A stretch of 64,000 bases of DNA, from the NCBI RefSeq assembly GCF_002090135.1, contig NZ_BBRL01000004.1, positions 1,054,001 to 1,118,000 on the forward strand, in the 5' to 3' direction. Below are positions 12,263 to 63,050 of the stretch, piece by piece. Origin of the DNA: Demequina sp. NBRC 110055. GTDB lineage: Bacteria; Actinomycetota; Actinomycetes; Actinomycetales; Demequinaceae. The first letter of the stretch is position 1; each line of letters begins with the position of its first letter. Under the pieces are notes generated by a model. It saw nothing but the letters and a program-made list of their open reading frames with translations. It was not told the origin of the DNA and did not search any database. The translations under genes were made by a program, and so were the position numbers.

Positions 12263-12291
12263 TTGACACATTACCACTCGGCCGCTACTGT
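12263..12291 (+). promoter_or_regulatory. Promoter of the EamA transporter gene
   Basis: TTGACA (12263-12268) and TACTGT (12286-12291) are separated by exactly 17 nt, near the housekeeping-sigma consensus. The transcript would start close to ATG 12300, so the message is probably leaderless. The element overlaps the -10 box of the divergent CGNR gene, so the two promoters compete. Confidence 0.65.
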
Positions 12292-12299
12292 CATCAGTC

Positions 12300-13310: not shown

Positions 13311-13340
13311 CGGTTTCTTGACCGGACGGGTCTTAGACCT

Positions 13341-13389
13341 GGCGGTTCGGGCCGGCGCCACCCCCTCCTTGCGCGCCGCCCGGACCGCC
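13341..13389 (+). terminator. Terminator after the EamA gene
   Basis: A long GC-rich hairpin starts with GGCGGT (13341-13346) and closes with ACCGCC (13384-13389), with inner CGGGC/GCCCG pairing. It is followed on the plus strand by ATTTTCTCTTA, a good T-rich tail. It sits between convergent genes and may also help end the rsgA operon from the other side. Confidence 0.65.
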
Positions 13390-13397
13390 ATTTTCTC

Positions 13398-16236: not shown

Positions 16237-16302
16237 GCTCCTACGCTACCAACCTCATCGCGCGGGCGGGAGGGGGCGGAAGTGTCGGCCGATGCAATGG
16301 CG

Positions 16303-16329
16303 GGGAATGCAGATCAGTTGCCTTGCGTT
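16303..16329 (+). promoter_or_regulatory. SigR-dependent promoter of sigR-rsrA
   Basis: GGGAAT (16303-16308) and GTT (16327-16329) are separated by exactly 18 nt. This is the established SigR/SigH-type consensus in actinobacteria (GGGAAT-N18-GTT). It lies 82 bp before the sigR ATG, so the sigma factor should activate its own operon during thiol-oxidative stress. Confidence 0.8.
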
Positions 16330-16410
16330 GTTCGTGCCATGACAGCCACCGTGACGAGAGCCCGCGGTGCGTCGGCGACAGCCGTGCGCACCGGGGTAGG
16401 CTCGCCCATC

Positions 16411-17013
16411 ATGAGCGACACTGTGCAGGACTTCGATTTCGAGGTGGAGGCGCTGTCCTATATGGACCAGCTCTACGCCGCGGCCCTGCGTATGACACGC
16501 AACGGGGCCGATGCTGAGGACCTGGTCCAGGAGACCTACGCCAAGGCCTTCGCCGCCCAAGACAAGTTCACGCCAGGCACGAACCTCAAGGCGTGGCTGT
16601 ATCGCATCCAGACCAACGCGTTCATCAACACGTACCGCAAGAAGCAGCGCGAGCCCAAGCGCTCCGACGCCGAGCAGGTCGAGGACTGGCAACTCGCAGC
16701 AGCCTCGGAGCACACCAGCACCGGGCTCGTGTCGGCCGAGCAGGAAGCGCTCGAGCGCATTGGTGACGACGACATCAAGGATGCGCTGGATGCGCTCAGC
16801 GAAGACTTCCGCATGGCGGTGTACCTGTCTGACGTCGAGGGCTTTGCCTATAAAGAGATTGCCGAAATTATGGATACCCCCGTGGGAACCGTGATGTCTC
16901 GGCTTCATCGCGGCAGAAAACTGCTGAGGGAACAGTTAAAGGAATACGCGGCCGATCGGGGCTTTACCGACAAGCGACCGGCCGCCAAGAAGGAAAGTAA
17001 GGGAGGTGTGTGA
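16411..17013 (+). CDS. sigR: RNA polymerase sigma factor SigR (ECF family)
   Basis: A 200-residue ECF sigma factor of the SigR/SigH class that directs the disulfide-stress regulon. Region 2 is at about residues 15-80 ([20 protein letters not shown], then [19 protein letters not shown]); region 4 is at 130-185 with a helix-turn-helix ending [18 protein letters not shown]. The next gene encodes its redox-sensitive anti-sigma RsrA, overlapping by one base (TGATG). The frame stays open upstream, so a longer isoform like the one known in Streptomyces is possible but unproven here. The upstream promoter matches SigR's own consensus. Confidence 0.95.
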
Positions 17014-42348: not shown

Positions 42349-42915
42349 ATGAGCCACGCCACGGACATCACCGTCATCGCCACGGGCGGCACCATCGACA
42401 AGGAGTACCTGCTCTCGGGTGACCTCGCGGTGGGGGAGCCTGCCGCGACGCGCATCCTGCACACGATGGTGCCGTCAGTCACCGTGCGGGTGGTCGGCGT
42501 CCTCGCGATCGACAGCCGCGACATGACCGATGCCGACCGCGACGTGCTCGCCCGCGAGGTGGCGGCGACCGATGCGAGAGCCATCGTGATCACCCACGGC
42601 ACCGACACGATGGCTGACACCGCCGAATACCTGGCCGCGCGCGTGTCGGACGGCGTCACGGTCGTCCTCACCGGGGCGCTGCGGCCCGAGACCGTGGCCG
42701 GGACCGACGCACACGTGAACCTGGGGTTTGCGCTCGCCGCTTCTCAGCTTGCGGGTCAGGGCGTATACGTGGCGATGGGCGCGCGGCTGTTTCCCGCGGG
42801 CGCGGTCCGCAAGGACCTCGCGACGGGGGCGTTTGTCGCGACGGTGGGCTCACGCCCGACGGCCCACCAGCGCGACGTCACTGACGGGCGAAGCGGGGAA
42901 TGGAATCGAGAGTGA
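42349..42915 (+). CDS. Single-domain asparaginase-like protein
   Basis: A 188-residue protein matching only the N-terminal domain of L-asparaginases. It has VIATGGTIDKEY (first active-site Thr near residue 12) and the second-site motif THGTDTMADTAEYL (near 85). Full asparaginases are about 320 residues, and the C-terminal domain is missing. Short proteins of this type exist in other bacteria, so this is likely a real variant rather than a fragment. GGGAGGA precedes the ATG, 56 bp after EcfT, so it may belong to the ECF operon. Its last 38 bp overlap the convergent GH31 gene. Confidence 0.75.
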   Translation: MSHATDITVIATGGTIDKEYLLSGDLAVGEPAATRILHTMVPSVTVRVVGVLAIDSRDMTDADRDVLAREVAATDARAIVITHGTDTMADTAEYLAARVSDGVTVVLTGALRPETVAGTDAHVNLGFALAASQLAGQGVYVAMGARLFPAGAVRKDLATGAFVATVGSRPTAHQRDVTDGRSGEWNRE

Positions 42916-44503
42916 CGTCAGCGGTGACTGTGCACGGTCCCTCGTAGGCGGTGCCGTCAAGGCCTCGCCACTGCCCGTCGGGCAAATGCACCACCCGCGT
43001 GCGTGCGCCGGGTTCGATCACCGGAGCGACGATGAGATCGGGGCCGAGGAAATACTGGTCCGTCACATCCGCCATTCCCGTCGCGTGGTACTCCATCGGT
43101 CGAAGCATCGGCTCGCCGGTAAGTGCGGCGTTGTCGAGGAGCTGTGAGATGAGCGGCATCAATGACTCACGCAAGGCCAAGGCCGCCTCCACTGCCGCGA
43201 GGTGCCGCGCGTCGAGCACGCGGAAGGGGAGCACAGAGAACTGCGCCATCGGGGCCATCGCCGCCACCTGCGCGTAACGTACGAAGAACTCTTGGTCGAT
43301 CTCCGTCTGAGTCGACATTGAGGTGATCTCACCGCCGCCGATCATGTCGGGACAGACGTAGGGGTGGCCGATCATGCCTTGCGCGAGCATTTCGGGAATG
43401 AGCGCGCCGATGCCCTCCGGACCCCACAGTGGAGGCTTGTCCTGCAGTCGCTGCGCGAGCGGCTGTCCGCCCGACTTCCACGAGGCGCGGTACTCGTTGA
43501 ACGGGTAGCGACTACCGAGCGAGGCCCACGCTTCGCACTGATCGACGGGCTGCGCTCCTGCCGCGGTCAGGTCGTCGGCGCGAAAGTCGCGGATGTCACC
43601 GCCGTCGAATTTGAACCCGTCGATGCCAACGTCGTGGACGAGGCGATCGAGTTGGTCAGTCATCCATGTGCGCGCTCGCGGATGTGAGAGGTCGAGTACA
43701 GCGCTAAGGCCGTTCCACCAACGACGTACGGCGGTGCGGCCCGATGCCTCACGGACGAGCAGGCCCTCGCTCTCGAGCGAACGAAAGGCCGCCGAATCCG
43801 GGCTGACGAATGGCACAACCCAGAGCATCACGTGGAAGCCTTGGCGATGGAGGATCCGCGTCATCTCGGCTGGATCGGGGAAGCGCGCGGGGTCGAAGTG
43901 CCATGTGCCATAGTCCGGAGACCAGCAGTCATCGATGAACAACGTTCCCGGCCTCATACCCGCATCCAGAATCCGCTGCGCGTAGGCGAGCACCGACGCC
44001 TGGGTGGGGTGGTAGGGCTGTTCAATCCACGTGTTGTATTGCGGCGCGGTGAAAAGTTCACGGGCGGGAGTCGAGCCAGATGCAGGGAAGTAGCGCGCCG
44101 AGGCGGCACGGAAAGCCTCACCCAGCGTCGAACCTGCGCGTTCGCTGACGAGCTCGTGGCCGCGCGCGTTGAGCGTGCCGTCCGCGAAGGTGAAGCTGAA
44201 GGGCCGTGGCGACCAGACGATGCGTCCGGTGGTCGATACCAGTAATGGGGCTGCCTGGTTGGAAGGCTTTCCCTCCTCCAGGAGTGCGGAAGAGGCATGT
44301 GGGGCCGCGAGGTCACGAGTAAAGCGGCGCCCGCCATAGGGCAAGGCATGCGCGTCCTCGACGGCGCCACCCCACCACCGTTCGCCCGGCTCGAGCGCGA
44401 GAGTCACCTCGGTGGCGGGTTGCGTCGCTGGGGCGGACGTGAGGGTGGCAGGCGGCTGGAGCGTCAAGGTATGTCCTTGCGGTCGAGGCCGGAGCGAGGT
44501 CAA
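42878..44503 (-). CDS. GH31-family glycoside hydrolase
   Basis: A 541-residue cytosolic enzyme of glycoside hydrolase family 31. The barrel has TAPQYNTWIEQ, LFIDDCWSPDYGTWHFD, the nucleophile Asp in GIDGFKFDGGDI, and HPYVCPDMIGGG as the later substrate-loop motif. GH31 includes alpha-glucosidases, alpha-xylosidases and alpha-galactosidases; the short length and motif set resemble the alpha-galactosidase type, but this is uncertain. The start is TTG 44503 with a weak ribosome site. Two palindromic sites lie upstream, shared with the divergent LacI gene. No signal peptide is seen. Confidence 0.85.
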   Translation of the reverse strand: MTSLRPRPQGHTLTLQPPATLTSAPATQPATEVTLALEPGERWWGGAVEDAHALPYGGRRFTRDLAAPHASSALLEEGKPSNQAAPLLVSTTGRIVWSPRPFSFTFADGTLNARGHELVSERAGSTLGEAFRAASARYFPASGSTPARELFTAPQYNTWIEQPYHPTQASVLAYAQRILDAGMRPGTLFIDDCWSPDYGTWHFDPARFPDPAEMTRILHRQGFHVMLWVVPFVSPDSAAFRSLESEGLLVREASGRTAVRRWWNGLSAVLDLSHPRARTWMTDQLDRLVHDVGIDGFKFDGGDIRDFRADDLTAAGAQPVDQCEAWASLGSRYPFNEYRASWKSGGQPLAQRLQDKPPLWGPEGIGALIPEMLAQGMIGHPYVCPDMIGGGEITSMSTQTEIDQEFFVRYAQVAAMAPMAQFSVLPFRVLDARHLAAVEAALALRESLMPLISQLLDNAALTGEPMLRPMEYHATGMADVTDQYFLGPDLIVAPVIEPGARTRVVHLPDGQWRGLDGTAYEGPCTVTADVTLDSIPRFARQ

Positions 44504-44551: not shown

Positions 44552-44655
44552 CTATTACCGGCAACCGTAGGGCGTGCGCGACGGGGGCGCAAGTCTCGGA
44601 GGCTTGTGCGCGCCTTGTGGCCAGGCCGCTGCAGTGATCGCCTAGGTTGTGTGCC

Positions 44656-45705
44656 ATGGCAGACACGCAGGGCAAGGGTGCTCGTTCTCGGCCCACCAGC
44701 AAGGACGTGGCGGCGCTGGCTGGCGTCGCTCAGAGCACCGTGTCGTACGTTCTCACCGGGAAGCGTGCGATCTCACCCGAGACCCGTCGGCGTGTCGAGG
44801 ACGCGATTCGCGAACTCACGTACCACCCCAATGCGGGAGCACGTGCATTGCGAGGGGCGCGCACAAATGTCGTTGCGCTCGTTGTCCGGTTGGGCGTTGA
44901 GGCGGACCTCAATGAGACCGTGCCCTACCTCGAGACGGTCATGGGGGAGGCGCGTGCCCGCGACTATGAGGTCGTCATGAATACGGCTGACGAGGGGCCC
45001 GAGGGTCTCGAGCGACTTGCCGGAAGGCGCATTGCAGACGCATTCGTGCTCATGGATGTGCGGACCGATGATCCCCGCCTCGACGCTGCAGCAGGGCTCG
45101 AGCTTCCCGTGGTGCTTTTCGGTCGGCCCGCGGATCGCCATGGATTGGACGCGGTGGACTTTGACACCAGGCGCGCGGCCGAACTGCTCGTCGATGAGCT
45201 CGCCGACACCAACCACCGGCGGGTGGTGCTCGTCGGCGAGGGACCCGGCTTCAGTGCGACCGACCTGCGGTTTATTCGAGAGTTTCACGAGGGTGCGATC
45301 GCGCGCGCACGTGAGCGTGCGATGAGTATCGACATCGTCTCCCGGGAGCGGGAAGGCTGGGCTGGGATGGAGACGGCCGCGGCCCGCATCTTTGCGCACG
45401 CGGACGACCGCCTCGGCATTATCGCCCGCACGCCCCAGGTCACTGAGTGGGTGGCTCAGCTCGCGAGGATTCGTGAGTTGAAGGTGGGGCGCGACGTGTC
45501 GCTCGTAAGCATGTGCACCGACGCGAATGCGCAACTCTTTGAGCCGGCGGTGACCAATGTGTCACCTCAGCCTGATCGGCTCTCCCGGCTAGGCATGGAT
45601 GTGCTCTTTGCCCGCATCGAGGGCGACGAGAGCCCGGCGCGGCTCCAGCTGGTTTCCCCAGAGCCGCCTGTCCGCCGCGGCAGCACGGTCCTCTTCCCTG
45701 CGTAA
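44656..45705 (+). CDS. LacI-family regulator of the glycan locus
   Basis: A 349-residue LacI protein: HTH TSKDVAALAGVAQSTVSYVL (about residues 14-33), hinge helix NAGARALRG and a sensor domain from NVVALVVRL to the C-terminus. ATG 44656 follows TAGGTT (44643-44648) by 7 nt, so a leaderless message is likely. It sits between the GH31 gene and the long ABC/glycosidase operon. Palindromes with the LacI-typical central CG occur at all three promoters, so it is the probable local repressor, relieved by a sugar imported through the locus. Confidence 0.9.
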   Translation: MADTQGKGARSRPTSKDVAALAGVAQSTVSYVLTGKRAISPETRRRVEDAIRELTYHPNAGARALRGARTNVVALVVRLGVEADLNETVPYLETVMGEARARDYEVVMNTADEGPEGLERLAGRRIADAFVLMDVRTDDPRLDAAAGLELPVVLFGRPADRHGLDAVDFDTRRAAELLVDELADTNHRRVVLVGEGPGFSATDLRFIREFHEGAIARARERAMSIDIVSREREGWAGMETAAARIFAHADDRLGIIARTPQVTEWVAQLARIRELKVGRDVSLVSMCTDANAQLFEPAVTNVSPQPDRLSRLGMDVLFARIEGDESPARLQLVSPEPPVRRGSTVLFPA

Positions 45706-46535: not shown

Positions 46536-48098
46536 ATGACAAAGATGTCTCGCCGTCGCGGCTTCATCGCCGCCGGCATCGGCTCGGGCCTGCTGGCCAC
46601 CACCGCCCTCGCGGGGTGCTCAGGCGACGCCGCGGAGGAGTCGAAGTACTTCGACGCGGACGGCAACCTGACAATGCTCGACATCATGGTCGAGTTCTAC
46701 ACCGATGCGGCGCCGGACCCCGAGGGTGACCTTCATCAGGCCCTCGAGGAGCTTGCTGGGGTCGACCTCGACATCACATGGGTGCCCAACTCGAACTACG
46801 CCGACAAGGTCGCGACGACCCTCGCTTCGGGGGACATCCCTGCGGTGATGGCGGTACCTCAGAAGACGTCGGCGTTCGTGCAGAATGCCGAAGCCGGGGG
46901 ATTTTGGGACATCACCGACCAGATCGCCGACTACCCCAACCTCCAGCCGTACGACGACGACGTGTTCGCGAACACTCTTGTGAACGGAGTTTCGTACGGC
47001 ATCATGCGCTGGCGTGATCCGATGCGCACCACCGTCACCTACCGCGCTGACTGGCTCGAGAACCTCGGCCTCGAGGTGCCGGAAACCGTCGAAGATCTCT
47101 GGGCGGTCTCCGAGGCGTTCACCCACGACGACCCCGACGGCAATGGCGAAGACGACACCTACGGACTCATCTTCAGTAACTGGAGTGACCTCAACACGGG
47201 CACGCCCTTCGACGCCCTTCAGACCTGGTACGGAGCACCGAACGGGTGGGGTGTGATCGACGGCACGGTCACGCCTGACGTCGTCACCGACCAGTTCCTC
47301 GAGGCCAACACTGCGCTGCGGGAGGCCTACGCCGACGGCCAGGTCAATCAGGACTTCCCCACGCTCGACTCCGCCAACTGGAACGACCCCTTCTTCAATG
47401 GTCAGGGCGGCATCATCATCGGTTCCGGATCGACCGCCAAGGGCCTGCTTGGACTGTTTAAGGAGTCTGACCCCGACAATTACGGGGACTACGTGACGAT
47501 CAGCGGCAGCCTCGCTGCAGCCGACGGCGAACTTCACGCGCTCCCCACCACCGGATCGGATGGCGTCATGGCGATCTCGAAGTCGGCCATCACGACGGAA
47601 GAGCAGCTGGACAAGGTGCTCGAGGTCCTCGACAAGCTCAACTCCGAAGAGGCGCAGCGCCTCATGGTGAACGGGATTGAGGGCGTGAGCTACGAGGTGG
47701 TCGATGGATTCTCGCAGCCCATCACCGATACCCCCGAGGGCGAGACGATGAACGCCGACACGAGCGCCTTCGGCCTCGTGAACATGGCCCAGAACGGCCG
47801 CAAGTTCTACGTCAAGGCACCCGACGGCGAGGCCGACAAGGCTCTCGTGTCGGAGCAGATCGACATCATGGCGCACGACCTTGACTACGCGGTGCCGAAC
47901 GTTGGCCTCGCGTACGTGACGCCCACCCAGGCGGACAAGCAGACGCAGCTGGCCAACATCATCATCGATGCCAGGACCAAGTACGTGGTCGGACAGATCG
48001 ATGAGGCCGGATTCCGCGCCGAGATCCAGCGCTGGCTCGACGAGGGCGGTCAGCAAATTGTGGATGAGCTCAACGAGGCGTACAGCGCCGATCACTAG
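46536..48098 (+). CDS. Carbohydrate ABC transporter substrate-binding lipoprotein (LplA-like)
   Basis: A 520-residue extracellular solute-binding protein. It has a basic SRRRGF start that could be Tat-type, a hydrophobic stretch and the lipobox LAGC, so it should be a membrane-anchored lipoprotein. The size and acidic surface resemble the LplA/YtcQ group that binds oligosaccharides, including pectin- or alginate-like fragments. It is followed by a stem-loop and two permease genes. No dedicated ATPase is encoded here; such systems usually share MsmK/UgpC-type ATPases encoded elsewhere. Confidence 0.9.
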   Translation: MTKMSRRRGFIAAGIGSGLLATTALAGCSGDAAEESKYFDADGNLTMLDIMVEFYTDAAPDPEGDLHQALEELAGVDLDITWVPNSNYADKVATTLASGDIPAVMAVPQKTSAFVQNAEAGGFWDITDQIADYPNLQPYDDDVFANTLVNGVSYGIMRWRDPMRTTVTYRADWLENLGLEVPETVEDLWAVSEAFTHDDPDGNGEDDTYGLIFSNWSDLNTGTPFDALQTWYGAPNGWGVIDGTVTPDVVTDQFLEANTALREAYADGQVNQDFPTLDSANWNDPFFNGQGGIIIGSGSTAKGLLGLFKESDPDNYGDYVTISGSLAAADGELHALPTTGSDGVMAISKSAITTEEQLDKVLEVLDKLNSEEAQRLMVNGIEGVSYEVVDGFSQPITDTPEGETMNADTSAFGLVNMAQNGRKFYVKAPDGEADKALVSEQIDIMAHDLDYAVPNVGLAYVTPTQADKQTQLANIIIDARTKYVVGQIDEAGFRAEIQRWLDEGGQQIVDELNEAYSADH

Positions 48099-49166: not shown

Positions 49167-50042
49167 ATGTCAGTTCACACCTCACGGTCCGAAAAGGCGC
49201 TCGATGTCACCAACGCCCTCGTTCTCATTGCTTTGGGGCTCGTCACCGTGGTGCCATTCATCTTCGTGATCGCGGGCTCATTCGCGACCGAGTCCGAGCT
49301 CACCGCCCGGCCCTTCTTCCTTTGGCCCGAGCAGTTCACGACGGCGTCCTATGACTTCATTTTGTCGACGGATACCTTCCTACGCAGCCTGCTCGTCACT
49401 GTCGGTGTCACGGTCTTTGGCACGCTCGTCCAACTCCTCTTGACGTTCACGATGGCGTATCCGCTGTCAAAGCGGTACCTGCCGGGTCGCACGCTGATTC
49501 TGAACCTCGTCGTGTTCACGATGGTGTTCACGGGTGGAATGATTCCCACGTTCTTGGTGGTCAAGAGCATGGGGCTGCTGGACTCTTACTGGGCGCTGAT
49601 CTTGCCGCTCGCGATCAGCCCCTTCTATCTGATCATCGTTAAGAATTTCTTCCAGGAGTTGCCTGAGGAGTTGCAGCAGGCGGCCAAAGTCGATGGTTGT
49701 AGCGAGATCGGCGTGTTCTTCCGCATCGTGCTGCCGCTGTCGAAGCCGGTACTCGCGACCTTTGCACTCTTTTACGCGGTGGGAATTTGGAACGACTTTA
49801 TGTCTCCGCTGCTGTATATCAACGACTCTTCGATGTGGACCCTTCAGATGTTTGTGCGCCAAGTCACGTCTTCGGCGAGCCTGAGCAACACGCTCGGCCA
49901 GACCAATCTCGACATCGTGCCGCCAGAGCAGGGTGTCCAGTTCGCCGTCATCGTGGCGGCGACCTTGCCCATTTTGATTCTGTACCCCTTCTTGCAAAAA
50001 CACTTTGCCAAGGGAATTCTCATTGGAGCGGTGAAGGGATGA
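49167..50042 (+). CDS. Carbohydrate ABC transporter permease, LplC/YtcP-type
   Basis: A 291-residue inner-membrane permease with six predicted helices. The EAA-like motif is QAAKVDGCSEIGVFFRIVLPL (near residue 170), and the entry VVPFIFVIAGSFAT is typical of the family. It starts 9 bp after the first permease. Its stop overlaps the ATG of the GH28-like gene (ATGA). Confidence 0.92.
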   Translation: MSVHTSRSEKALDVTNALVLIALGLVTVVPFIFVIAGSFATESELTARPFFLWPEQFTTASYDFILSTDTFLRSLLVTVGVTVFGTLVQLLLTFTMAYPLSKRYLPGRTLILNLVVFTMVFTGGMIPTFLVVKSMGLLDSYWALILPLAISPFYLIIVKNFFQELPEELQQAAKVDGCSEIGVFFRIVLPLSKPVLATFALFYAVGIWNDFMSPLLYINDSSMWTLQMFVRQVTSSASLSNTLGQTNLDIVPPEQGVQFAVIVAATLPILILYPFLQKHFAKGILIGAVKG

Positions 50043-52033
50043 CTCTCGACATGGTTGACCAGGCGGGCATTGCCGGCACATGGGACGATGCGCGTTACAG
50101 CGAGATCGTCGATGACGTGTACCGGCACGTCCCTCGGTTCGATGGGCCAGTGATCGACATTGCCGCCGAGCCGTACTCGTCTCTGGTGCGGCTCGAGACC
50201 GAGGTGTATGCCGACGGCAATCTCGCCGGAGACCCGGCGTCCACCGATTCGCCTCTCATCATGCGGGAGCGGCCAGTCTGGTACTACGGAGACGCCATCG
50301 CGGCGGCCATCGCCGAATGTCACCGTCGTGGCGGTGGCACGGTCTTGATCCCTCCGGACTCGTCACGCAATCCCGATGGCGCGCATTACACAGGAGCGAT
50401 CCGGCTCCTCAGTGGGGTTCAAGTGCGTGTCGAGGCCGGCGTCACGGTCAAGTTCATGCGCAACATCGACAGTCGCTTCTATCCGGCGGTGCGCACGAGC
50501 TACCAAGGTTCGGACCTTTACTCGATGTCGCCCTTGGTCTATGCCTATGGCGCGCGCAACGTCGGCATCAGCGGGGGAGGGACGCTCGACGGCCAGGAGG
50601 ATCTGTGGAACTGGCGGCCCTTCAAGAAGGGCTATTGGGGATGCCCCGACGTGGAAGGCGGCACCCCGGCGCCCGGATTGGGAGATCTCAACACCCTGCT
50701 GGGCATGAACGTCGCGGGCGTGGCGGTGGAGGAGCGCATCTTTACCGCGAGCGGCGCGCGGCCGGCCACCATTGAGCGTCGCGGTCCCGACGGAACCCTG
50801 ACGAGCGCGCCACTGGACGAATCGACACCGGTCTATCGGTCAACATTCAGGCCGTCCTTTATCCAGACCTTTGAGTGCGAAAACGTCCTCATCGAGGGCA
50901 TCAAGATTCGCAATGCGCCCTTCTGGATCGTCCATCCGGTGAGCAGCCGTCGAGTGATGATCAGAGACCTCGACGTGTTCAATGACCGCGACGTGCTGGG
51001 ATTCGAGCCGCACACCTGGAACAACGACGACGGGATCGACCCGGAGTCGTGCGAGAACGTTGTCATTGAGCGATGCCGCATCAATGTCAACGATGATGGG
51101 GTGGCGGTGAAGTCAGGCCGCGATCGGGACGGCCGTGAGCGGCGCGAACCCTGCAACGGGCTCGTCATCCGTGACTGCCACGTGCGCAACGACACCGGCA
51201 ACTCTGCGGGCATCTCCATGGGCTCGGAGGTCTCGGGAGGCGTGCGCGACGTGTTTGTGCACGACGTGGTCTTCGACGGTCGTGGACTGATGCACGCGCT
51301 CAAGATCAAGACCAACGCCACGCGCGGCGGCGCGATTGAGGACATCCATCTTCGCGACTGCACCGTTCACCAGGTGGGTCTGTCCCTCATCCAGCTGGAC
51401 ACGAACTACGGGATCGCGCCGCCGATTCCCGGCACCGATATCCACGATCCGGTGATCCGCCGGATCAGCGTGGTGAATGTCAGCACGGTGGCGCCGGTGC
51501 CCGCGGGAGTGCCGCTGTTTACCGTCCCGAGTTCCGTATCGCGCTCCCCGGTTTCGTCCGTGCGCTACGCGCATGCGACGTTCCATGCCGCCCGTGCTGG
51601 CTCAACGGGACTGAAGTTCGGTCGCTTTGTGCGTGACGTTATTCTCGAGGACGTCACATTCGCCGATCCCGTCACAAGAGAGACTGAGACCTACTCGTCG
51701 AAGCCTCTGGAGTTCGTCGATCTCGTGGTGCGCGACGACCGCGGAGTTGGTCTTCCGGTCCCCGGAGGAGGAGACCCCGTTGCCGTGACGGGCCGTTTCA
51801 CGGTCGAGGGCCGTGTCACGTGGGGAGGCGAGCCAGTGGAGGGCGAGGTGCGTTTGCACGTCGACCGGGACGCAGAAGGCGTGGTGCTGACCGCCGACGC
51901 GGAGGGACGGTTCACGTCGGACCCCATTGATCCCGACCGCACCGGCTTTTGGTACGCCGGCATCACCTACGCGGCGCTCCACGTCGCCATTGACGGCATG
52001 GCACACACCGAGGTTGTGAGGGTGACGGCATGA
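50039..52033 (+). CDS. GH28-like right-handed beta-helix glycoside hydrolase
   Basis: A 664-residue cytosolic enzyme (no signal peptide). It has a parallel beta-helix typical of glycoside hydrolase family 28: NNDDGID (near 328), NVNDDGVAVKSG (near 351, the paired Asp), GNSAGISMGSEVSGG (near 385) and HALKIKT (near 419, the Lys of the R/x-I-K motif). The GH28 His-Gly pair is replaced by Ser-Ala, a difference seen in some bacterial members. The C-terminal about 80 residues resemble a carboxypeptidase-regulatory beta-sandwich. It likely acts on galacturonan- or rhamnogalacturonan-type oligomers delivered by the ABC system. Confidence 0.85.
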   Translation: MTLDMVDQAGIAGTWDDARYSEIVDDVYRHVPRFDGPVIDIAAEPYSSLVRLETEVYADGNLAGDPASTDSPLIMRERPVWYYGDAIAAAIAECHRRGGGTVLIPPDSSRNPDGAHYTGAIRLLSGVQVRVEAGVTVKFMRNIDSRFYPAVRTSYQGSDLYSMSPLVYAYGARNVGISGGGTLDGQEDLWNWRPFKKGYWGCPDVEGGTPAPGLGDLNTLLGMNVAGVAVEERIFTASGARPATIERRGPDGTLTSAPLDESTPVYRSTFRPSFIQTFECENVLIEGIKIRNAPFWIVHPVSSRRVMIRDLDVFNDRDVLGFEPHTWNNDDGIDPESCENVVIERCRINVNDDGVAVKSGRDRDGRERREPCNGLVIRDCHVRNDTGNSAGISMGSEVSGGVRDVFVHDVVFDGRGLMHALKIKTNATRGGAIEDIHLRDCTVHQVGLSLIQLDTNYGIAPPIPGTDIHDPVIRRISVVNVSTVAPVPAGVPLFTVPSSVSRSPVSSVRYAHATFHAARAGSTGLKFGRFVRDVILEDVTFADPVTRETETYSSKPLEFVDLVVRDDRGVGLPVPGGGDPVAVTGRFTVEGRVTWGGEPVEGEVRLHVDRDAEGVVLTADAEGRFTSDPIDPDRTGFWYAGITYAALHVAIDGMAHTEVVRVTA

Positions 52034-53661
52034 GTTGGGGCGAGGGCCGCCCGGAGCTTGGTATTCAGGGGCCCGTCGTGGCGTGGCAGGACCCGTGGGC
52101 GGGCGACGCATCCGACGCCATCATGCGCACGGGAACGGGCCGGCTCGTGGCGTCCCAGGATCCGGCTCCCTCGCCGCAGGATTTCGTCGGGCTGCTCGGT
52201 GAACTCGGTGCGGACTTCTATGTTCACCATGTCATGCCGGGTCTGGACGGGCACGACCAAATGGTGGAGGATCTCGCCGGCGCCTCCATCGATGTCGTGC
52301 TCGGCAATGAGTACGGCAACATCAACGGTCCTTGGGTCGAGGGGACCAACCGTTTCGACATTCCCACGTCCGCGATCGCATCGGCGTCTGCGAGGGGAAT
52401 CCTCGCCGGGGTGTTGTATGACGAGCCCGAGCACCTTCAGATCAACGCGGGCCAGTACCGCCATGACGGCTGGTATCCACATTTCGCCGACACGGCGGGC
52501 GCCGACCTTGCAGCCGCGGGTAGCGCCGTGGCGGCGAGCGTGCGGGACGTGGTGGCCGATGCCCAAGCTGCGGCCGCCGCGCCGCTGACGGTGGCGGCGG
52601 AACACGTCTTCCCCACGATGTTCCACACGCTTGCACGCGGCGGGATGGCGCCCACGCCGAAGATGATGAAGGAGTCCTTCCACCCGGTGCAGATGGCGAT
52701 GGCCATGGGTGCGGCGCTCCAGTACGACCGCCCATTGTGGGTGTGTGCTGATCTGTGGGGACCGGACATCGGCCCCTGGTTCACGCGCGCGCCGGGGTTC
52801 CCGGGTCATTCGCCCGAGGAGTTCGCCACTGCGCTACGGATGGCATACCTGCTGGCGCCCGACAAGCTCTTTGTCGAGAACATTGATGTGCTCGCTCGCT
52901 TCGGCGGAGATTCCTTTGTCCTCACCGAATTCGGCGACGTGTGGAGCGAGTTTGTCCGCAGCTTCGTGCCGACGGCCGGCGTGGATTGGTCGTTCCGTGA
53001 CGCGACCCCGAACGTTGCGCTGATCCATGCCGACGACAGCGACTTTGGGCGTGGGGTGCAGGCGTTCGGCGACCGCGACGCGCGTGCACCCGAGCAGGCG
53101 AGCAGCGTCTTCGACGCATGGCGGGTCCTGACTCACGCCACGACGCCGCCGCACGGAATCAGCCTGCACATCGACGGGTATCGGTTTCCTCGCGTGGAGC
53201 TCGACGGTGTGGCGCGTGACCAGTTCCCGCTGACGCACGGCGCCCCGGCGCCCACCCACGTCCACGAGCCTTTTCAGCCGGCGCACAATGTTCTCGTCTA
53301 CGACGAGATGGTGTCCGATGCCCGCCTGCCCGACGCGCCCGTCATTGTCGTCGTCGGTTCACGATTGCCCGACGCCACCCGCGACATGCTGGTGCGGCGC
53401 GCCGAACGCGGCGCGACCGTCGTCATCGGCGATTGGCTCGCGGCCGGAATCGCTTCGGGTCGCAAGGGCGAGGGTGTATGGATCGCGACTGAACGCGTCG
53501 GCGCGGACGACGCGATGGAGGTCCTCGCACCACACCTGGGCTCGGCCGACGAGTGGACCCAGCGCTTCGGTGACGTTGAGGTGGTCTTCGTGCGGAGCGA
53601 GAGCGCGCCAGCAGGAGTAGAGATTTCGGTCAGGCGCCCCGTGGCGCCCGTGCGACGATGA
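52030..53661 (+). CDS. Uncharacterised barrel protein, possible new glycoside hydrolase
   Basis: A 543-residue protein I cannot assign to a known family. Residues about 40-330 alternate as a TIM barrel. Two Glu-rich motifs stand where clan GH-A enzymes have their acid/base and nucleophile: LYDEPEH (near 130-136) and VLTEFGDVWSEF (near 297-308). Residues about 390-520 look Rossmann-like (VIVVVGSRLPDATRDMLVRR), like the trimerisation domain of GH42. Its ATG overlaps the GH28 stop, and its own stop overlaps the esterase start (both ATGA). No signal peptide is present. Glycosidase function is inference from motif and context. Confidence 0.7.
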   Translation: MSWGEGRPELGIQGPVVAWQDPWAGDASDAIMRTGTGRLVASQDPAPSPQDFVGLLGELGADFYVHHVMPGLDGHDQMVEDLAGASIDVVLGNEYGNINGPWVEGTNRFDIPTSAIASASARGILAGVLYDEPEHLQINAGQYRHDGWYPHFADTAGADLAAAGSAVAASVRDVVADAQAAAAAPLTVAAEHVFPTMFHTLARGGMAPTPKMMKESFHPVQMAMAMGAALQYDRPLWVCADLWGPDIGPWFTRAPGFPGHSPEEFATALRMAYLLAPDKLFVENIDVLARFGGDSFVLTEFGDVWSEFVRSFVPTAGVDWSFRDATPNVALIHADDSDFGRGVQAFGDRDARAPEQASSVFDAWRVLTHATTPPHGISLHIDGYRFPRVELDGVARDQFPLTHGAPAPTHVHEPFQPAHNVLVYDEMVSDARLPDAPVIVVVGSRLPDATRDMLVRRAERGATVVIGDWLAAGIASGRKGEGVWIATERVGADDAMEVLAPHLGSADEWTQRFGDVEVVFVRSESAPAGVEISVRRPVAPVRR

Positions 53662-54746
53662 GCTCGGAGGCGTCAGCGGCGATGGCGACAGTAGGGGTGC
53701 CCGACCACCACGAGTCTGTGAGTGGGACAACTACGGTACGGATGGGGGAGCCGCCTCTGTCCCTTCACGGGCTCTCCCACGTCGACGCACGCGCGCAGGA
53801 GTTTTGGCGTCTTCCGCCGGATCTCATCGCGAGCCTGCCCGAGCCCTATGAGCGGTTGGGGCGGCGCCCCGCAGGTGGTCGCGTGAGGTTCGCGACCAAC
53901 GCGACCTCGTTCACTGTCCGCCTCGTGCTGAAGACGGAAAGCGTCGACCCGACCATGGCGCTGCCGGCGGCGGCCGGAGCGGACGTCTACATCGGCGCGG
54001 GCATGGGTGCCCGGTTTGTGGGCCAGGTCGCACCACGGGCGTACGGGTACGCGGGCGTGCCATTCGAGGTGTCCATCGTGAAGGGCCCTGGCTGGGAGAC
54101 CGTCACGATCAATCTTCCTCGAAACGAGCAAATCGAGTCCCTAGAGGTCGATCTTCCCCCGAGTGCGCGCCTCACCGTGGCCCCGTCGTACCGTCATGCG
54201 GCGCCCATCGTCTTTTACGGTTCGTCGATCACCGAGGGCGCGGCAGCGCCGCGACCCGGGGCGGCTTATACGAGCACGGTCGCGAGGTGGCTCGACTCCG
54301 ATCACCTCAACTACGGGTTTTCCGGCAATGCCCAAGGTGAGCAGGCCGTCGCCGCACACATCGCTGCGCACGACGCCCTCACGGCCTTCGTCCTCGACTA
54401 CGACCACAACGCGCCGACGGTCGAACACCTTGACCTGACACACCGCCCCTTCTTCGAGACGGTCCGTGCCGCCCATCCCGACATTCCCGTGCTCATCATG
54501 ACTCGTCCCGAGGTCGATGCGGATCCAGAGGACTCCGCACGCCGGCGGGACGTCGCGATGGAGACGTTTCTTACCGCCCGGGCCGACGGCGATCGTCAGG
54601 TGTGGTTCCTCGATGGGCACGAGCTCTTTGGCACGGTGGGTCGAGAGGAGTGCACCATCGATCGGCTCCACCCCACCTCGCTGGGTTTCCACAGGATGGC
54701 GGTGCGGGTACATGCGGTGCTCAAGCGCGCCCTCAACCTCAACTGA
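53658..54746 (+). CDS. SGNH/GDSL esterase with N-terminal beta domain
   Basis: A 362-residue cytosolic hydrolase. Residues about 30-170 form a beta-sandwich; the SGNH domain follows with the nucleophile block VFYGSSITEG (near 188), LDYDHNAP and the catalytic DRLHP-x-S-x-GF (near 333). Unlike the SGNH protein at 18908-19516, all catalytic residues are present. Two-domain proteins of this type remove acyl groups from carbohydrates. Being translationally coupled to two glycosidase-like genes, it probably deacetylates the imported oligomer. Confidence 0.87.
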   Translation: MSSEASAAMATVGVPDHHESVSGTTTVRMGEPPLSLHGLSHVDARAQEFWRLPPDLIASLPEPYERLGRRPAGGRVRFATNATSFTVRLVLKTESVDPTMALPAAAGADVYIGAGMGARFVGQVAPRAYGYAGVPFEVSIVKGPGWETVTINLPRNEQIESLEVDLPPSARLTVAPSYRHAAPIVFYGSSITEGAAAPRPGAAYTSTVARWLDSDHLNYGFSGNAQGEQAVAAHIAAHDALTAFVLDYDHNAPTVEHLDLTHRPFFETVRAAHPDIPVLIMTRPEVDADPEDSARRRDVAMETFLTARADGDRQVWFLDGHELFGTVGREECTIDRLHPTSLGFHRMAVRVHAVLKRALNLN

Positions 54747-54842
54747 GTCCGCCGGCGCCCGCGACGGCGCGGCACTGCTGTGCCCGCATACCGGCCGGTG
54801 GGCGAACACGTCCGGCACACCTTACGAGAGAAAGGATCCCCC

Positions 54843-56081
54843 GTGATCATCGACAAGGCCGAGGTCATCGTCACCAGCCCGGACCGCAACTTCGTCACGC
54901 TCAAACTGACGACCGCGGACGGCGTCACCGGCATTGGCGACGCCACACTCAACGGGCGCGAGCTTGCCGTGGTGGCCTACCTCGAGGAACACGTCGCGCC
55001 TCTTCTCATCGGGGCCGACGCGACCCGCATCGAAGACACCTGGCAGTTCCTTTACCGGTCGGCGTACTGGCGGAGGGGCCCCGTGACGATGGCCGCGAGC
55101 GCAGCTGTCGACATGGCGCTGTGGGACATCAAGGGCAAGGCGGCGGGCATGCCCGTGTACCAGTTGCTTGGCGGGGCCAGTCGCACGGGCTTGCTCGCCT
55201 ATGGCCATGCATCGGGCAGGGACCTACCCGAATTGTTCGAGTCGGTCCGTGCTCACCTTGACCAGGGCTACCAGGCCATTCGAGTTCAGACCGGTGTGCC
55301 GGGTCTCAAGGCCATCTATGGCATCGCAGCCCAGGCGGCGCAAGCGGGCGGGGGAGAGGCGAGGTACGACCACGAGCCCGCTCGCCGGGGCGCGCGTCCC
55401 GTACAGGAGGATTGGGACACGCGCGCCTATCTGCGCCACCTTCCGGGGGTCTTTGAGGCGGTGCGCCACGAATTCGGCCCGGAGTTGCCGCTCCTGCATG
55501 ACGGTCACCACCGTATGACACCGATTCAGGCGGCGCAGCTGGGCAAGTCGCTCGAACCATACGACCTGTTCTGGCTCGAGGATTGCACTCCGGCCGAGAA
55601 CCAGGAGGCGTTGCGACTGGTGCGCCAGCACACGACGACGCCGCTGGCCATCGGCGAGATCTTCAACACCGCGTGGGACTTCAAGGACATCATCAGGGAC
55701 CAACTCATCGACTATGTCCGTGGCGCGGTGACGCACATGGGAGGAATAACGCCCCTGAAGAAGACCCTGGAGTACGCGGCGATGTACCAGATCAAGTCGG
55801 GGATGCATGGGCCCACCGACATCTCCCCGGTGGGGATGGCCGCCGCCATGCATCTGGGCCTCGCCATCCACAACTTCGGCATCCAGGAGTACATGCAGCA
55901 CGGAGCCAGGACCAATCAGGTCTTCGAGCAGTCCTTTACCTGGGAAGGCGGGCACCTCCACCCGGGGGATGCTCCCGGTCTCGGCGTCGAGCTCAACGTC
56001 GACGAGGCGGGTAAGTACCCATACGAGCAGGCCTATCTCCCGTTTAACCGGCTCGCGGACGGGACCGTACACGACTGGTAG
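54843..56081 (+). CDS. Enolase-superfamily sugar-acid dehydratase (mannonate dehydratase family)
   Basis: A 412-residue protein of the ManD/RspA branch of the enolase superfamily. It has an N-terminal capping domain (1-120) and a barrel with [20 protein letters not shown] and [10 protein letters not shown] as metal-ligand segments. Family members dehydrate D-mannonate or D-gluconate-type acids to 2-keto-3-deoxy sugars, though some have low or no activity. GTG 54843 is supported by AAAGGA 8-10 nt upstream. It ends the operon and points to a uronic- or aldonic-acid product. The exact acid is not determined. Confidence 0.87.
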
Positions 56082-56171: not shown

Positions 56172-59100
56172 CTAACTCAGTTCGAACGTGCGGGTCGTGA
56201 CATTGCCTGCCACGTCGTACACCCGCAGGGTGTTGGACCCCGCGACGGCGCCGAGGCTTCCGGCACGCACCGTGTTGACGTCGGACCACGCGTTGTTCAC
56301 GAGGTCTTTGACGACCCCGTTGATCTCAACGCGATCGACCTTGCCCGAGTCGTACAGCTTGAAACTCACGACGTCGTAGGCGTCACCGTTGTCGACGGTG
56401 AATGATGCCCCGGTCTTGACTGTGACAGTGGGCGCCGTCGTATCGACGACGAACGCCGCCTGGCCAGTCGCCGAGACATTGCCCGCGACGTCATGCGCGT
56501 TGTATTTGACGGTGTAGCTCCCGTCGGGCAGGTTGACCGTGGCCTCGTGAGTTGCCGACGTAGCGCCGTTGGCCTTGGTCTGGGTGCTCTTGACGAGCGT
56601 GCCATCCCGGTAGATGTTGGCGACGAGCGTCGCCAACCCCTGGTTGTCCGACGCGTCAACCTGGACGTGCACCGCGCTGAACGGTCCCGCCGTTGCCGGC
56701 GACACGAGGATGGCCTCCGGGCGGGTGAGGTCCACCGTGGGCGCGGCGATCGGAGTCGCGGCGACCGTGACTTTGTCGATGTACGCGATGCTCTTGTCTC
56801 CGGTGGAGAATCTCACCTTCGCGACGTCGTCGGTGGCCTGGACCAGCGGCACGTCGTCGGCCATGACCTTGCCGTCGATCGCGAGTGACAACACATCGCG
56901 AGCGGTGTCGATTTCCAGCGTAACCTCGTAGAACTTCCTGGTGATGTACCCCTGGAGCTCGACGCTGCCACCCTCGGACGTGACGTAGGCGATCTTTCCG
57001 GCGTCGGTGAAGTCAACTCCGGCGATGAGGCTGCCGCTGCTGTCATAGACGTATGGGGCACGCAGGCCTTGGCTCGTGGCGTCCTTGAGGATGCGAGCCG
57101 AGACTCGTACTGTCCCGTCGACCGGATCGATCTCCTTGTCGGCGTAGGTCTCGCCTTCGACGCTCGACGTGCGGCGGAGCCTAAGGCTCTTGTCCGCGTC
57201 GCCCGGCTTCGGGTAGACCTCCGCGATGGTGTCGTTGGGGGAGACGGTCCAGCCCTCTGGCGACGCCCAGGTCGCCTGGCTGTCGAATCCTTCGTCGAGG
57301 ACCGTCGTGGTGGCCGATGCGGCAATCGGGTGCGTCGTGACGACCTGGACCGTCTCGTACGCCTCGAGTTCGAGGACGATGTCGCCGTCCACCGTGGTGA
57401 ATCCCTTGGCGGCCTCGACGCTCCACTCGTCGTTTGCGTCGTAGTGGCCGCTCGTGACCTCCACAGGTCCGTACTGCGCGAGCCCATCCAGCGTGAACAG
57501 CGCGTCAGTCTTGCTCGCCAGGGCAATCGTGTCGTCGGCCTTCTCGATCGCCACCCCGACGCCCTTGTTCGTGGTCGTGTACGTCACGGGCACGCTACGG
57601 ATGTTCTTCGTCGAGGTCGACGATTCGTTCGCACGGGCATTGAAGAATTTCAGTTGGTCGCCGCCATTGCTGTCGGGTGACTTGGTGGCGAGGTCGTACG
57701 CGAACGTCTTGAGCCAGTTGTTGGTGGCGGCAATACCCTCGACGTTGGTGTTCTGCGCGGCAAAGTCGTAGAAGTACATGCCGAACGGGCCGCCGCCAAT
57801 GTACTGGTACTGGTTGTAGACGGCACCGCCTGCAATGGTGGCGAGTGCGAGGTAATCGCCGTTGTCGAGACGCCCCGAGTTTTCCATCACCATGGGCAGG
57901 TTGCCGCCGTGGTCGTATCGCTCGTAGTAGCGGTCGTCCCACAGGCCCTGACCATAGAGATATGCCTCGTTGGTGTCGTCGAAGTAGGGGTCGTATCCCA
58001 CGAAGTCGACGTACGAGGTCTCACCGCGAGCCTTCATCTGCTCGTTGTTGTAGACGTAGTTCATCTCCGCCGAATGGAAGTTGATACGGGTGTAGACCGG
58101 GTAATCGGACTGCTTGACCGCGGCCCCGAGGTTCTGGGAGTAGTCCATGAAGGACTGGTTCATGAACTTGGAGGCCGACGTGTAGCCGCCCGCTTCGTAC
58201 GCAGCCTGGCTATAGGGGGCGTACGACCTGCCGCCGAAGATCGCGGCGCCGGGTTCATTCACGAGCTGTGCGCCGATGACCGTGTGCTTGTTTCCGTGAG
58301 CGTCGTCGTACTGCGCGATGTGGTCGAAGACGCTCTGGAGTGCGGTGTACTCGAGCTCACGCAACTGCGGGTCGTCGAGCGACATCATGTACATGTACGT
58401 GGTGTTCTTTCGGACGTCGGGTCCGCCGCCCTTCTTCACGAGGGTGGAGCCGTCCTTGGCTTGGGCCTTCTCGTAGTTGCGGATGACGTAGTACGGGGTG
58501 GAGTTGTCCGCGGTAACTTTCACGATCTGCGATCCCAGCCACAGGATCTCCATCTTCATTTCGGCGGACTCGGCCCAGCCCACCATCTTGTCGACCCAGG
58601 AGTAGTCCCACACGTCAGCGCGTGAGATCACGAGCTTGGGTGACACCGACGCGCCCGCTCCGTCGATGCTGACGCCCACGGAGTTGCTGCCGTCGGCGAC
58701 GAGCATGAAACTCGCCAGCTTGCCCTGGGGATAGGCGATGTCGTTGAGGAAGTCGGTCACGTCGAAGTCGTACACGTGCACCTGGTCAATGGGATCCCAC
58801 GAGGGAGTCCCGCCGAGGTCGACGTAGTCGATCCCCTCCTCGCCGGTGATGGCGTAGTCGTCATGGTTCGGCGAACCCGAATTCCAGGTCATGGTCGAGG
58901 CGTCCCATGAGTTGTCGGCGATGCCGTAGAGGCGCAGGTGGGCCGTGCCGGCATCCTTCTCGTTGACTCGGATGCGGATCTTGGAGGCATCGGCCGACGA
59001 CCCGGAGATGTCCGAGAAGTCGAACTGGAAGTAGGAGATCGCTTGAGCGTCGGGGTTCTCCGGATCGAAGCGAACCTTCAACGACTCCTCCGATGAGAAG

Positions 59101-59501
59101 TTCGTGTCGGCGTGCGTTCCGGCCGCAACGTACCCGGACGTGGTCGCGGAATAGACCTGGTCCGGTTGGATGTCGAGCCAGTTGAGGTGAGAGTTCGCCA
59201 CGGTGAACCCGTCCTCTGCCGCTTCGTTGTAGACACGCTGATACTCGGCGTCCGTCCACGTGGTGTTGTTCTGAATCCAGTCAGTGCGGATCTGTGTCCC
59301 GTTGAAGAAGAACGGCTCGCCGTCGACGAGCATGACTTGCTCTTTGGCGTTCGGGTCCGTGTTCTGCTGGATCTCGGAGATCGGATTGGCCCCGGAGGTT
59401 GCAGGCTCCGAGGCCTCCGCGGGAGTAAGAGCGGTGAGGCTGGCACACACCGCGAGAGCGGCGAGTGTGGCGCCCGTCCGCCGGCGTATAGGTGTAGACA
59501 T
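56172..59501 (-). CDS. Large secreted glycoside hydrolase with inserted DNRLRE-like domain
   Basis: A 1,109-residue exported protein with an N-terminal signal peptide (RRRTGATLAALAVCASLTAL, cleavage near 30). A clan-GH-A-like barrel starts at about 45, is interrupted by a DNRLRE-type beta domain (about 118-292, GTHADTNFSSEESLKVRF to SVGVSIDGAG) and resumes to about 700, with the acid/base candidate in LVNEPGA (near 417) and a second Glu in VMENSG (near 540). A LamG-like region (about 725-915) and two Ig-like domains (about 920-1109) follow. The fold resembles DUF4978/GH35-type beta-galactosidases; the family is uncertain. Two LacI-type sites control it. Confidence 0.8.
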   Translation of the reverse strand: MSTPIRRRTGATLAALAVCASLTALTPAEASEPATSGANPISEIQQNTDPNAKEQVMLVDGEPFFFNGTQIRTDWIQNNTTWTDAEYQRVYNEAAEDGFTVANSHLNWLDIQPDQVYSATTSGYVAAGTHADTNFSSEESLKVRFDPENPDAQAISYFQFDFSDISGSSADASKIRIRVNEKDAGTAHLRLYGIADNSWDASTMTWNSGSPNHDDYAITGEEGIDYVDLGGTPSWDPIDQVHVYDFDVTDFLNDIAYPQGKLASFMLVADGSNSVGVSIDGAGASVSPKLVISRADVWDYSWVDKMVGWAESAEMKMEILWLGSQIVKVTADNSTPYYVIRNYEKAQAKDGSTLVKKGGGPDVRKNTTYMYMMSLDDPQLRELEYTALQSVFDHIAQYDDAHGNKHTVIGAQLVNEPGAAIFGGRSYAPYSQAAYEAGGYTSASKFMNQSFMDYSQNLGAAVKQSDYPVYTRINFHSAEMNYVYNNEQMKARGETSYVDFVGYDPYFDDTNEAYLYGQGLWDDRYYERYDHGGNLPMVMENSGRLDNGDYLALATIAGGAVYNQYQYIGGGPFGMYFYDFAAQNTNVEGIAATNNWLKTFAYDLATKSPDSNGGDQLKFFNARANESSTSTKNIRSVPVTYTTTNKGVGVAIEKADDTIALASKTDALFTLDGLAQYGPVEVTSGHYDANDEWSVEAAKGFTTVDGDIVLELEAYETVQVVTTHPIAASATTTVLDEGFDSQATWASPEGWTVSPNDTIAEVYPKPGDADKSLRLRRTSSVEGETYADKEIDPVDGTVRVSARILKDATSQGLRAPYVYDSSGSLIAGVDFTDAGKIAYVTSEGGSVELQGYITRKFYEVTLEIDTARDVLSLAIDGKVMADDVPLVQATDDVAKVRFSTGDKSIAYIDKVTVAATPIAAPTVDLTRPEAILVSPATAGPFSAVHVQVDASDNQGLATLVANIYRDGTLVKSTQTKANGATSATHEATVNLPDGSYTVKYNAHDVAGNVSATGQAAFVVDTTAPTVTVKTGASFTVDNGDAYDVVSFKLYDSGKVDRVEINGVVKDLVNNAWSDVNTVRAGSLGAVAGSNTLRVYDVAGNVTTRTFELS

Positions 59502-61901: not shown

Positions 61902-62126
61902 CGTGTGACCTCTCTGTCATGCACCCGAGGGGGCTCGAACCTTCGTCGGCCCGCGGTGTTAGAGGCGATCATGGACCCCTCGCGAAAAAAGCGCAAGTGC
62001 GCGGTTTATGTGCGACGGGGCGTAGGCGGAGCCTGTCCAGGGCTGTTACGCTCGCAAAAGCCACGCAGTTGCGCGGGATTATGGACGCCGGTGTCCCCGT
62101 ACCCGGTGAGAGCGAGGAGTGACGCA

Positions 62127-63050
62127 ATGAAGATCATGCACAGGCGTTTGCAGGAGGTTCGAGATGAGCGGCAGCTTGGTCGCGTCTTCGCGCTCGAGGC
62201 GCGCTCGGAGGAGTTGATGCGTCCGCTCGGTCATCCCGAGCCGGAACGCTTCCGCGTGTTCGCGGCTGGAGAGCTCCACTCGCAGACGCGAATTCAAGAA
62301 CGCACCTATGCGAGCTTCGCGGAGTGGGCCGCGGCGATCGAGGCGAGTGCGGCGTCTCTCGATCTTGCCGCGCTCGAGCCCGAACGGCGCGACCTGTTCG
62401 AGTGGGAGCGCGAAGAACTGTTCTACGTTGACGCCTTCGGTGACACGGTGCCGGCATGGGTCGAGCTGGTGGACCAAGCGGTTCAGACGCAACGTGAGGC
62501 AGCCGCGGCGAAGCTCGACGAGCTGTTGGCAGCGGCCGGTCGCCAGCCCGCGGTGCCCGAATCGGCGTATCGCGCCCCCGACATTGCGGAGGATGGCGAG
62601 CCCAGCGAGGCTCCCGCCGCCATCCGCACGCGCAAGCCGATGCCCATCATGTACCGCCAGATCCAGGAGATCCGTCCGGGCATGTGGCAGCAGCAGTTCG
62701 AACTCGAACACAGGACGGATGTCGTGGAATCCGCCGCGGGCCACCCCCTCCCGAACCGCCACCGCGCTTTTGCTGCGGGCTCTCTCGATTCTCAGTTGCG
62801 CATCCACCAGCGCGTCTACCCGAGCATTGCCGACTGGGGAAGGTTCTTCGAGGAGTGGACGACCCACGAGGAGATGCAGGCGCTTGAGATCGAGCGTCGC
62901 CAGTTCTACACGTGGGAACGCGAGGAACTCCTGTACGTCGATCTGCCTGGTGAGCGTCCCATCCGTTGGATGGAGTTGATGGTCGAGGCGCACGGCGCTG
63001 CGTCCGCAGGCGACAGCGCCGAGTTGCGTTCGATCCTGCGTCACCTGTGA
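62127..63050 (+). CDS. Duplicated-domain protein of unknown function
   Basis: A 307-residue cytosolic protein made of two related halves. Residues about 1-102 (MHRRLQEVR to EREELFYVD) and about 178-280 (MYRQIQEIR to EREELLYVD) align along their length, sharing FAAGxLxSQxRIxxRxY and WEREEL(F/L)YVD. The linker is Ala/Pro-rich. The pattern recalls NIPSNAP/dimeric alpha-beta-barrel domains but no family was recognised. GAGGAG precedes the ATG, and its stop overlaps the GH3 start (TGATG), so it is co-translated with a glycosidase and probably helps in the same pathway. Confidence 0.75.
   Translation: MKIMHRRLQEVRDERQLGRVFALEARSEELMRPLGHPEPERFRVFAAGELHSQTRIQERTYASFAEWAAAIEASAASLDLAALEPERRDLFEWEREELFYVDAFGDTVPAWVELVDQAVQTQREAAAAKLDELLAAAGRQPAVPESAYRAPDIAEDGEPSEAPAAIRTRKPMPIMYRQIQEIRPGMWQQQFELEHRTDVVESAAGHPLPNRHRAFAAGSLDSQLRIHQRVYPSIADWGRFFEEWTTHEEMQALEIERRQFYTWEREELLYVDLPGERPIRWMELMVEAHGAASAGDSAELRSILRHL

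Follow-up and report, generated by a model that had tools for sequence, protein, structure and literature searches.

Several described glycoside hydrolase (GH) families join a catalytic (beta/alpha)8 barrel to a Rossmann-like domain. The GH42 beta-galactosidases and alpha-L-arabinopyranosidases (1kwg, 5xb7) carry one catalytic Glu at barrel strand 4, directly after an Asn, and the other at strand 7. The GH164 structure displays the same succession of barrel, trimerisation domain and beta-sandwich as GH42, with Glu160 and Glu297 of the beta-mannosidase Bs164 placed on strands 4 and 7 (PMC7105311), and the GH5 exo-beta-mannosidase Op5Man5 (7bob) likewise combines its barrel with a GH42-type trimerising layout (PMC8233224). 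A different catalytic arrangement is found in the GH151 enzyme ALfuk2 (6tvk), composed of a barrel and a Rossmann domain, which uses D154 on strand 4 and E235 on strand 6 and whose active site is completed by a His that the adjacent chain contributes (PMC10154630). Here, we describe a gene, hereafter X, located in a 64,000-nucleotide stretch (the window) of Demequina sp. NBRC 110055 (contig NZ_BBRL01000004.1, positions 1,054,001 to 1,118,000), whose product is predicted to adopt this two-domain layout and matches no family profile. With a probability of roughly 0.55, X is a cytoplasmic exo-glycosidase that represents a new GH42-fold family and acts on rhamnogalacturonan-II (RG-II) or apiose-type pectic oligosaccharides.

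A conserved gene without a family profile

X begins with ATG and extends for 543 codons, uninterrupted by stops, from 52030 to 53661 on the forward strand. It is more than a chance open reading frame (ORF), since full-length relatives exist at 44-53% identity and 134 of its 543 positions are invariant among 26 sequences. Whether searched as a single sequence or as a 26-member profile, X found no Pfam match at E<=1 and no PDB sequence, and NCBIfam yielded a chance-level match only. In particular, PF02449 (GH42) was matched by none of the 26 members at E<=1, and neither PF14871 (GHL6, GH151-like) nor PF13204 (GH140, apiosidase) was matched by any of them. When the 26-member alignment was compared with family profiles by hhalign, the probabilities were 0.4 for GH42, 0.7 for GHL6 and 1.1 for GH140, whereas GH42 and GHL6, used as a control pair, recognized each other at 99.4 (E 1e-21). 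The absence of both a profile match and an hhalign signal argues against membership in GH42, GHL6/GH151 and GH140. Profile comparison gave no signal with GH106, GH2, GH29, GH95 and other families either, and X does not match GH5, the sequence family of Op5Man5. A match of one member to the "membrane protein" model NF010978 (E 0.001) and a hint of DUF4350 in three members (E 0.09) were dropped as chance. Judged against Pfam, NCBIfam and PDB sequences, X is thus, by sequence, a family of its own. This agrees with the preliminary description of the window, in which the protein could not be assigned; the Pfam and NCBIfam searches placed it in no known family.

Nearly all members of the family come from Paenibacillaceae. 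A scan of one-genome-per-species contigs returned five relatives, all from Paenibacillus and 50-54% identical to X, and when 394 Paenibacillaceae genomes were searched in full, 24 proved to carry X, in two cases as a fragment (G421, G712); pairwise identity across the 26 members ranges from 44 to 97%. No relative was found in 98 genomes related to that of the window, elsewhere in the sampled Actinomycetota, in 397 other Bacillota genomes, or in the viral contigs and plasmids searched. A weak match in an actinobacterium (L007, G385) did not recur when the alignment was used and was discarded as spurious. In the phylogenetic tree, the window copy occupies the longest branch and groups with locus L001 and the clade of L002, L003 and L038 (support 95/93), and L001 and the window also have in common the importer and a secreted CBM96 enzyme. 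The window copy is therefore isolated and strongly diverged, which is most simply explained by horizontal transfer.

Two genomes carry X twice: G406 at L046 (8737-10554) and L001 (7953-9632), and G430 at L048 and L055. Of these, the copy in L046 has a GH138-like gene 11 kb away and an oligogalacturonate lyase in its vicinity.

Predicted fold and candidate active site

The structural features of X are as follows, the domains being predicted from AlphaFold models and conservation referring to the 26 members:

52030-53661, + strand: X, candidate glycosidase of a putative new GH42-fold family, 543 amino acids (ORF, relatives, predicted fold, no family match)
52057-52989, + strand: predicted (beta/alpha)8 barrel, residues ~10-320, the first ~45 of low confidence
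53002-53649, + strand: predicted Rossmann-like domain of the GH42 trimerisation type, residues ~325-540, with residues ~336-417 of low confidence
52420-52431, + strand: D131-E132-P-E134, end of barrel strand 4, acid/base (or nucleophile) candidates, conserved in 26/26
52672-52674, + strand: E215, end of strand 6, at a position comparable to the GH151 acid/base, invariant
52750-52752, + strand: D241, end of strand 7, invariant
52876-52878, + strand: E283, end of strand 8, invariant
52927-52929, + strand: E300 of the TEFG motif, proposed earlier as nucleophile, conserved in 18/26 only

Two models were obtained, one for the window protein (mean predicted local distance difference test score, pLDDT, 59) and one for a Paenibacillus relative from L004 (mean pLDDT 62), their low scores being due to the few sequences, six, used as input. 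Both show the same order of elements, that is, an eight-stranded barrel followed by a Rossmann-like domain; the barrel is of the kind shared by clan GH-A, and its first strand falls within the low-confidence stretch at residues 1-45. Foldseek ranked GH42 enzymes first (E 3.6e-5 and 2.8e-7, probability 1.00), and Op5Man5 is also matched at probability 1.0. Using VIA-align, the second model aligned with GH42 1kwg over 412 residues (Z 13.0, root-mean-square deviation 4.8) and with GH164 over 420 residues (Z 12.6), while 6tvk appeared among the matches of the first model at Z 7.9. The top 20 structural rows are mostly enzymes composed of a barrel and a trimerisation domain, including GH42 and GH164; a GH family missing from these lists is not thereby excluded. 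X is ~100-140 residues shorter than GH42 chains and consequently largely lacks their C-terminal beta-sandwich, the models showing only a few strands shortly after the Rossmann-like domain. The models thus support, with modest confidence, the barrel and the GH42-like Rossmann domain that had already been proposed from the sequence. If the domain type is a guide, X is probably a homotrimer in which the barrel would be catalytic and the Rossmann-like domain would mediate trimerisation.

The candidate active site departs from the GH42 and GH164 arrangement. In the motif LYDEPEH (residues 129-135), D131, E132, P133, E134 and H135 are invariant, with small changes at the first residues. Other invariant carboxylates fall at predicted strand ends as well, so that the series reads E94 (strand 3), D131, E132 and E134 (strand 4), E191 (strand 5), E215 (strand 6), D241 and D246 (strand 7), and E283 and D286 (strand 8); D21, D110 and E264, together with D335, D336, D425 and E497 in the second domain, are equally invariant, and invariant His residues are present in the second half of the protein. 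According to the models, strand 7 corresponds to LWVCADLWGPD, and its only carboxylates are D241 and D246, at the position that a Glu nucleophile occupies in clan GH-A. The preliminary description had paired a Glu of LYDEPEH with the Glu of TEFG as acid/base and nucleophile of clan GH-A. The first half of this proposal is acceptable, since E132 and E134 are reasonable acid/base candidates. The second is not: E300 is replaced in 8 of the 26 members (V in four, I in two, A in two) and was rejected as the nucleophile on account of this variability; in both models it also lies in a helix region past the eighth barrel strand. Since this position varies and is not where the nucleophile would be expected, and strand 7 offers no Glu in its stead, a textbook pair of clan GH-A is not demonstrated. 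Instead, E132 would most likely serve as general acid/base, with D131 replacing the usual Asn, and the nucleophile could be D241, in a scheme resembling clan GH-A, or come from the pair D131/E215, in a scheme resembling GH151 with Asp on strand 4 and Glu on strand 6. Overall, the preliminary description was mostly right in what it observed and wrong in its catalytic pair, and its claim of novelty is sound as far as Pfam, NCBIfam and PDB go.

Pectin-related genes around X

In the window, X belongs to a run of genes on one strand, namely a LacI regulator, a lipoprotein, two permeases, GH28, X, an esterase and a ManD-type dehydratase, flanked at both ends by opposite-strand genes:

42878-44503, - strand: GH31 enzyme at the operon flank
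44647-45705, + strand: LacI-family regulator, upstream of X
46536-48098, + strand: solute-binding lipoprotein of an ATP-binding cassette (ABC) importer, with homologues close to X in L001, L046 and L049
48180-49157 and 49167-50042, + strand: two ABC importer permeases (homologue clusters c8 and c1)
50024-52033, + strand: GH28 exo-galacturonidase-like enzyme (PF00295, 5e-20), true start uncertain, the ORF opening at 49787
53658-54746, + strand: SGNH/GDSL esterase with a GxDLY N-domain (PF14606, 7e-28)
54780-56081, + strand: ManD-type D-mannonate/galactonate dehydratase (NF043051, above cut-off), family match from residue 24
56172-59501, - strand: secreted CBM96 and DUF4978 enzyme whose barrel is unmatched in Pfam, with a homologue adjoining X in Paenibacillus L001

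As had been stated earlier, X is coupled to both the GH28-like enzyme and the esterase. The GH28 stop overlaps the X start (GGC ATGA GT) and the X stop overlaps the esterase start (CG ATGA GC). No signal peptide was seen in X on inspection by eye, so that the enzyme would act on imported material. The adjacent importer may bring in a pectic oligosaccharide from which GH28 would remove galacturonate and the esterase acyl groups, with X trimming the same oligosaccharide.

Two further proteins of the window merit mention in their own right. The barrel of the CBM96/DUF4978 enzyme (in L001 at 9885-16571, +) has NEP and MENS motifs and possibly represents another unnamed GH family, and the 381-residue ORF at 61905-63050 (+) consists of two similar halves (MHRRLQEVRDERQ... 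and MYRQIQEIRPGMW...), indicating an internal duplication.

The substrate of X is better read from the relatives, whose surroundings point to RG-II and apiose-type pectic fragments. RG-II is the most complex of the plant pectins, and BT1020 and GH138 are RG-II enzymes of Bacteroides. At L002, L003 and L038, X belongs to a series of genes comprising GH2, GH29, GH95, a BT1020-like propeller (matching 5mqr at 9e-156), GH28 and a GH138-like galacturonidase (matching BPa0997 at 3e-173). A GH138-like gene is present in 12 of the 24 genomes with X as against 2 of 370 others (p 9e-15). In nine genomes it shares a contig with X; the distance to the nearest copy is 1.6-21 kb in eight of them and 26 kb in the ninth, and in seven of the nine it is within about 11 kb.

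Apiose, a rare sugar, forms the second theme, and the described structure of RG-II includes an apiose-galacturonate linkage (PMC7939467). Homologues of apiose catabolic genes are found near X at some Paenibacillus loci only. In G598, G410, G430 and G440, X is separated by 2-15 kb from a fucose-isomerase-type isomerase, two half-transketolases and an FGGY kinase, and in G435 the isomerase is found at about 21 kb; in all five genomes the distance between isomerase and X is within 2-25 kb. The transketolases and the kinase match AptA, AptB and the apulose kinase of E. coli SE15 at 47, 39 and 38%, respectively, and strains carrying the cluster of which these are part grew on apiose (PMC13001218). 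Genes similar to OiaX and OiaK, which belong to the oxidative catabolism of apiose, lie in the vicinity of X in G598, G430, G435 and G440, their matches being full-length and, where scored, below the NCBIfam curated cut-offs. Among the Paenibacillus genomes with X that were searched, all 23 contain the isomerase, compared with 11 of 56 controls (p 6e-12). GH140/PF13204 apiosidase-like genes, which share the theme of RG-II and apiose, are common in genomes with X and lie near some X loci. In the Paenibacillus relatives, the substrate would thus most likely be an RG-II side chain or another apiose-bearing pectin, and the sugar released by X, or the adjacent one, may be apiose. As for the specific sugar, apiose is the leading single candidate, followed by an L-fucose or L-galactose linkage.

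Additional observations concern genes at these loci. A protein of ~574 residues (MATRQIPDTLMLEERAAHALN...) and a partner of ~230 residues precede the OiaX/OiaK-like genes in L042 (14155-15879), L142 (205-1929) and L144 (5119-6846); the larger protein, in its L042 copy, has no Pfam or NCBIfam match, and the two are candidates for missing steps of apionate catabolism. The isomerase, split transketolase and glycerol-kinase-like FGGY kinase form a set in L042 (4103-8880) and L144 (12107-16830) that could comprise an apiose isomerase, an apulose transketolase yielding dihydroxyacetone, and then a kinase, an order which would be a possible variant of the known apiose pathway. A nucleoside-hydrolase-like gene that might encode a furanosidase adjoins X or the apiose genes in L048 (11120-12052, IU_nuc_hydro) and L144 (16853-17776, similar start). 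Finally, a protein of the fatty-acid-desaturase type is found within sugar clusters containing X and GH29 in L039 (14478-15581) and L041 (14006-15103), and one may speculate that it acts as an O-demethylase on the methyl-ether sugars that RG-II contains.

Alternative functions and significance

Certain observations weigh against an exo-glycosidase for RG-II or apiose-type oligosaccharides. The co-occurrence statistics given above ignore phylogenetic relatedness and genome size, the neighbours differ widely between X loci, and X is close to apiose genes in five or so genomes only. Searches of the window genome found neither an OiaX-like gene nor a PF13204 apiosidase-like gene nor an isomerase gene of the apiose type, so that the apiose reading may not apply to it. 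The hydrolase class itself is suggested by a modestly confident fold, and the GH-A signature is missing from the sequence, with D-E in place of N-E on strand 4 in addition to the Asp-only strand 7.

One possible but tentative proposal is that X is a beta-D-apiosidase, or cuts an apiose-bearing disaccharide, and constitutes a second apiosidase family beside GH140. The constant presence of the isomerase in Paenibacillus genomes with X argues for it, as does L042, where X sits between the AptA/AptB-type set and the OiaX/OiaK set, and the occurrence of apiose on galacturonate in RG-II and apiogalacturonan (PMC7939467, PMC6302742) fits the coupling with GH28; however, PF13204 apiosidase-like genes already exist in 23 of the 24 X genomes searched (all but the window's, which also lacks the other apiose genes tested), and most X loci have GH29 or GH95 rather than apiose genes beside X. 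The latter genes, frequent at X loci, would suit an exo-alpha-L-glycosidase similar to GH151, for instance of the alpha-L-fucosidase or L-galactosidase type, in which strand 4 would supply an Asp as nucleophile and strand 6 a Glu as acid/base. D131 and E215, which are conserved in 26/26 and which the models locate at the ends of these two strands, would be the counterparts of the ALfuk2 residues, the invariant His residues of the second half recall the His contributed by the neighbouring chain in ALfuk2, and 6tvk is among the structural matches. This assignment nevertheless appears rather unlikely, given that PF14871 is not matched, that profile-profile similarity is absent, and that fucosidase-type activities are already supplied by GH29 and GH95.

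A function other than hydrolysis is doubtful. MocA-type genes occur in about half of the X loci, often directly adjacent, and X could be a lactonase, epimerase or lyase that uses a GH-like barrel and cooperates with the xylose-isomerase-type proteins and the MocA oxidoreductase next to it. Barrel proteins are known among the lactonases of apionate catabolism. The abundance of invariant His, Lys and Glu at strand ends, the missing canonical GH-A pair and the epimerase and isomerase folds among the weaker Foldseek matches are consistent with such a role, but the best structural matches are two-domain glycosidases, and in the window operon and in L001-L003 X is accompanied by GHs and has no MocA partner beside it. 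It is very unlikely that X is a divergent member of GH42 or of another known GH-A family that profile searches missed: its architecture and fold do match GH42, yet the hhalign comparison, in which GH42 and GHL6 recognize each other readily, gave no sign of kinship, PF02449 found nothing in 26 members, and the strand-7 Glu nucleophile is absent. The preferred reading continues to be a cytoplasmic exo-glycosidase for RG-II or apiose-type pectic oligosaccharides. A narrower version of it, in which a GH42-like body with an active site remodelled to dispense with the strand-7 Glu would define a new glycosidase family specific for an apiose-bearing linkage of RG-II or apiogalacturonan, cleaved inside Gram-positive cells after import, can be put forward only speculatively.

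The degradation of RG-II is known enzyme by enzyme in Bacteroides. To our knowledge, far fewer descriptions exist of its breakdown by Gram-positive soil bacteria, which work largely on oligosaccharides that they have imported. A conserved enzyme family that has no profile and is tied to RG-II and apiose genes represents a testable missing step in this process. With X, the GH42-fold enzymes would gain a family whose catalytic centre is unusual, and X could help to release rare sugars.

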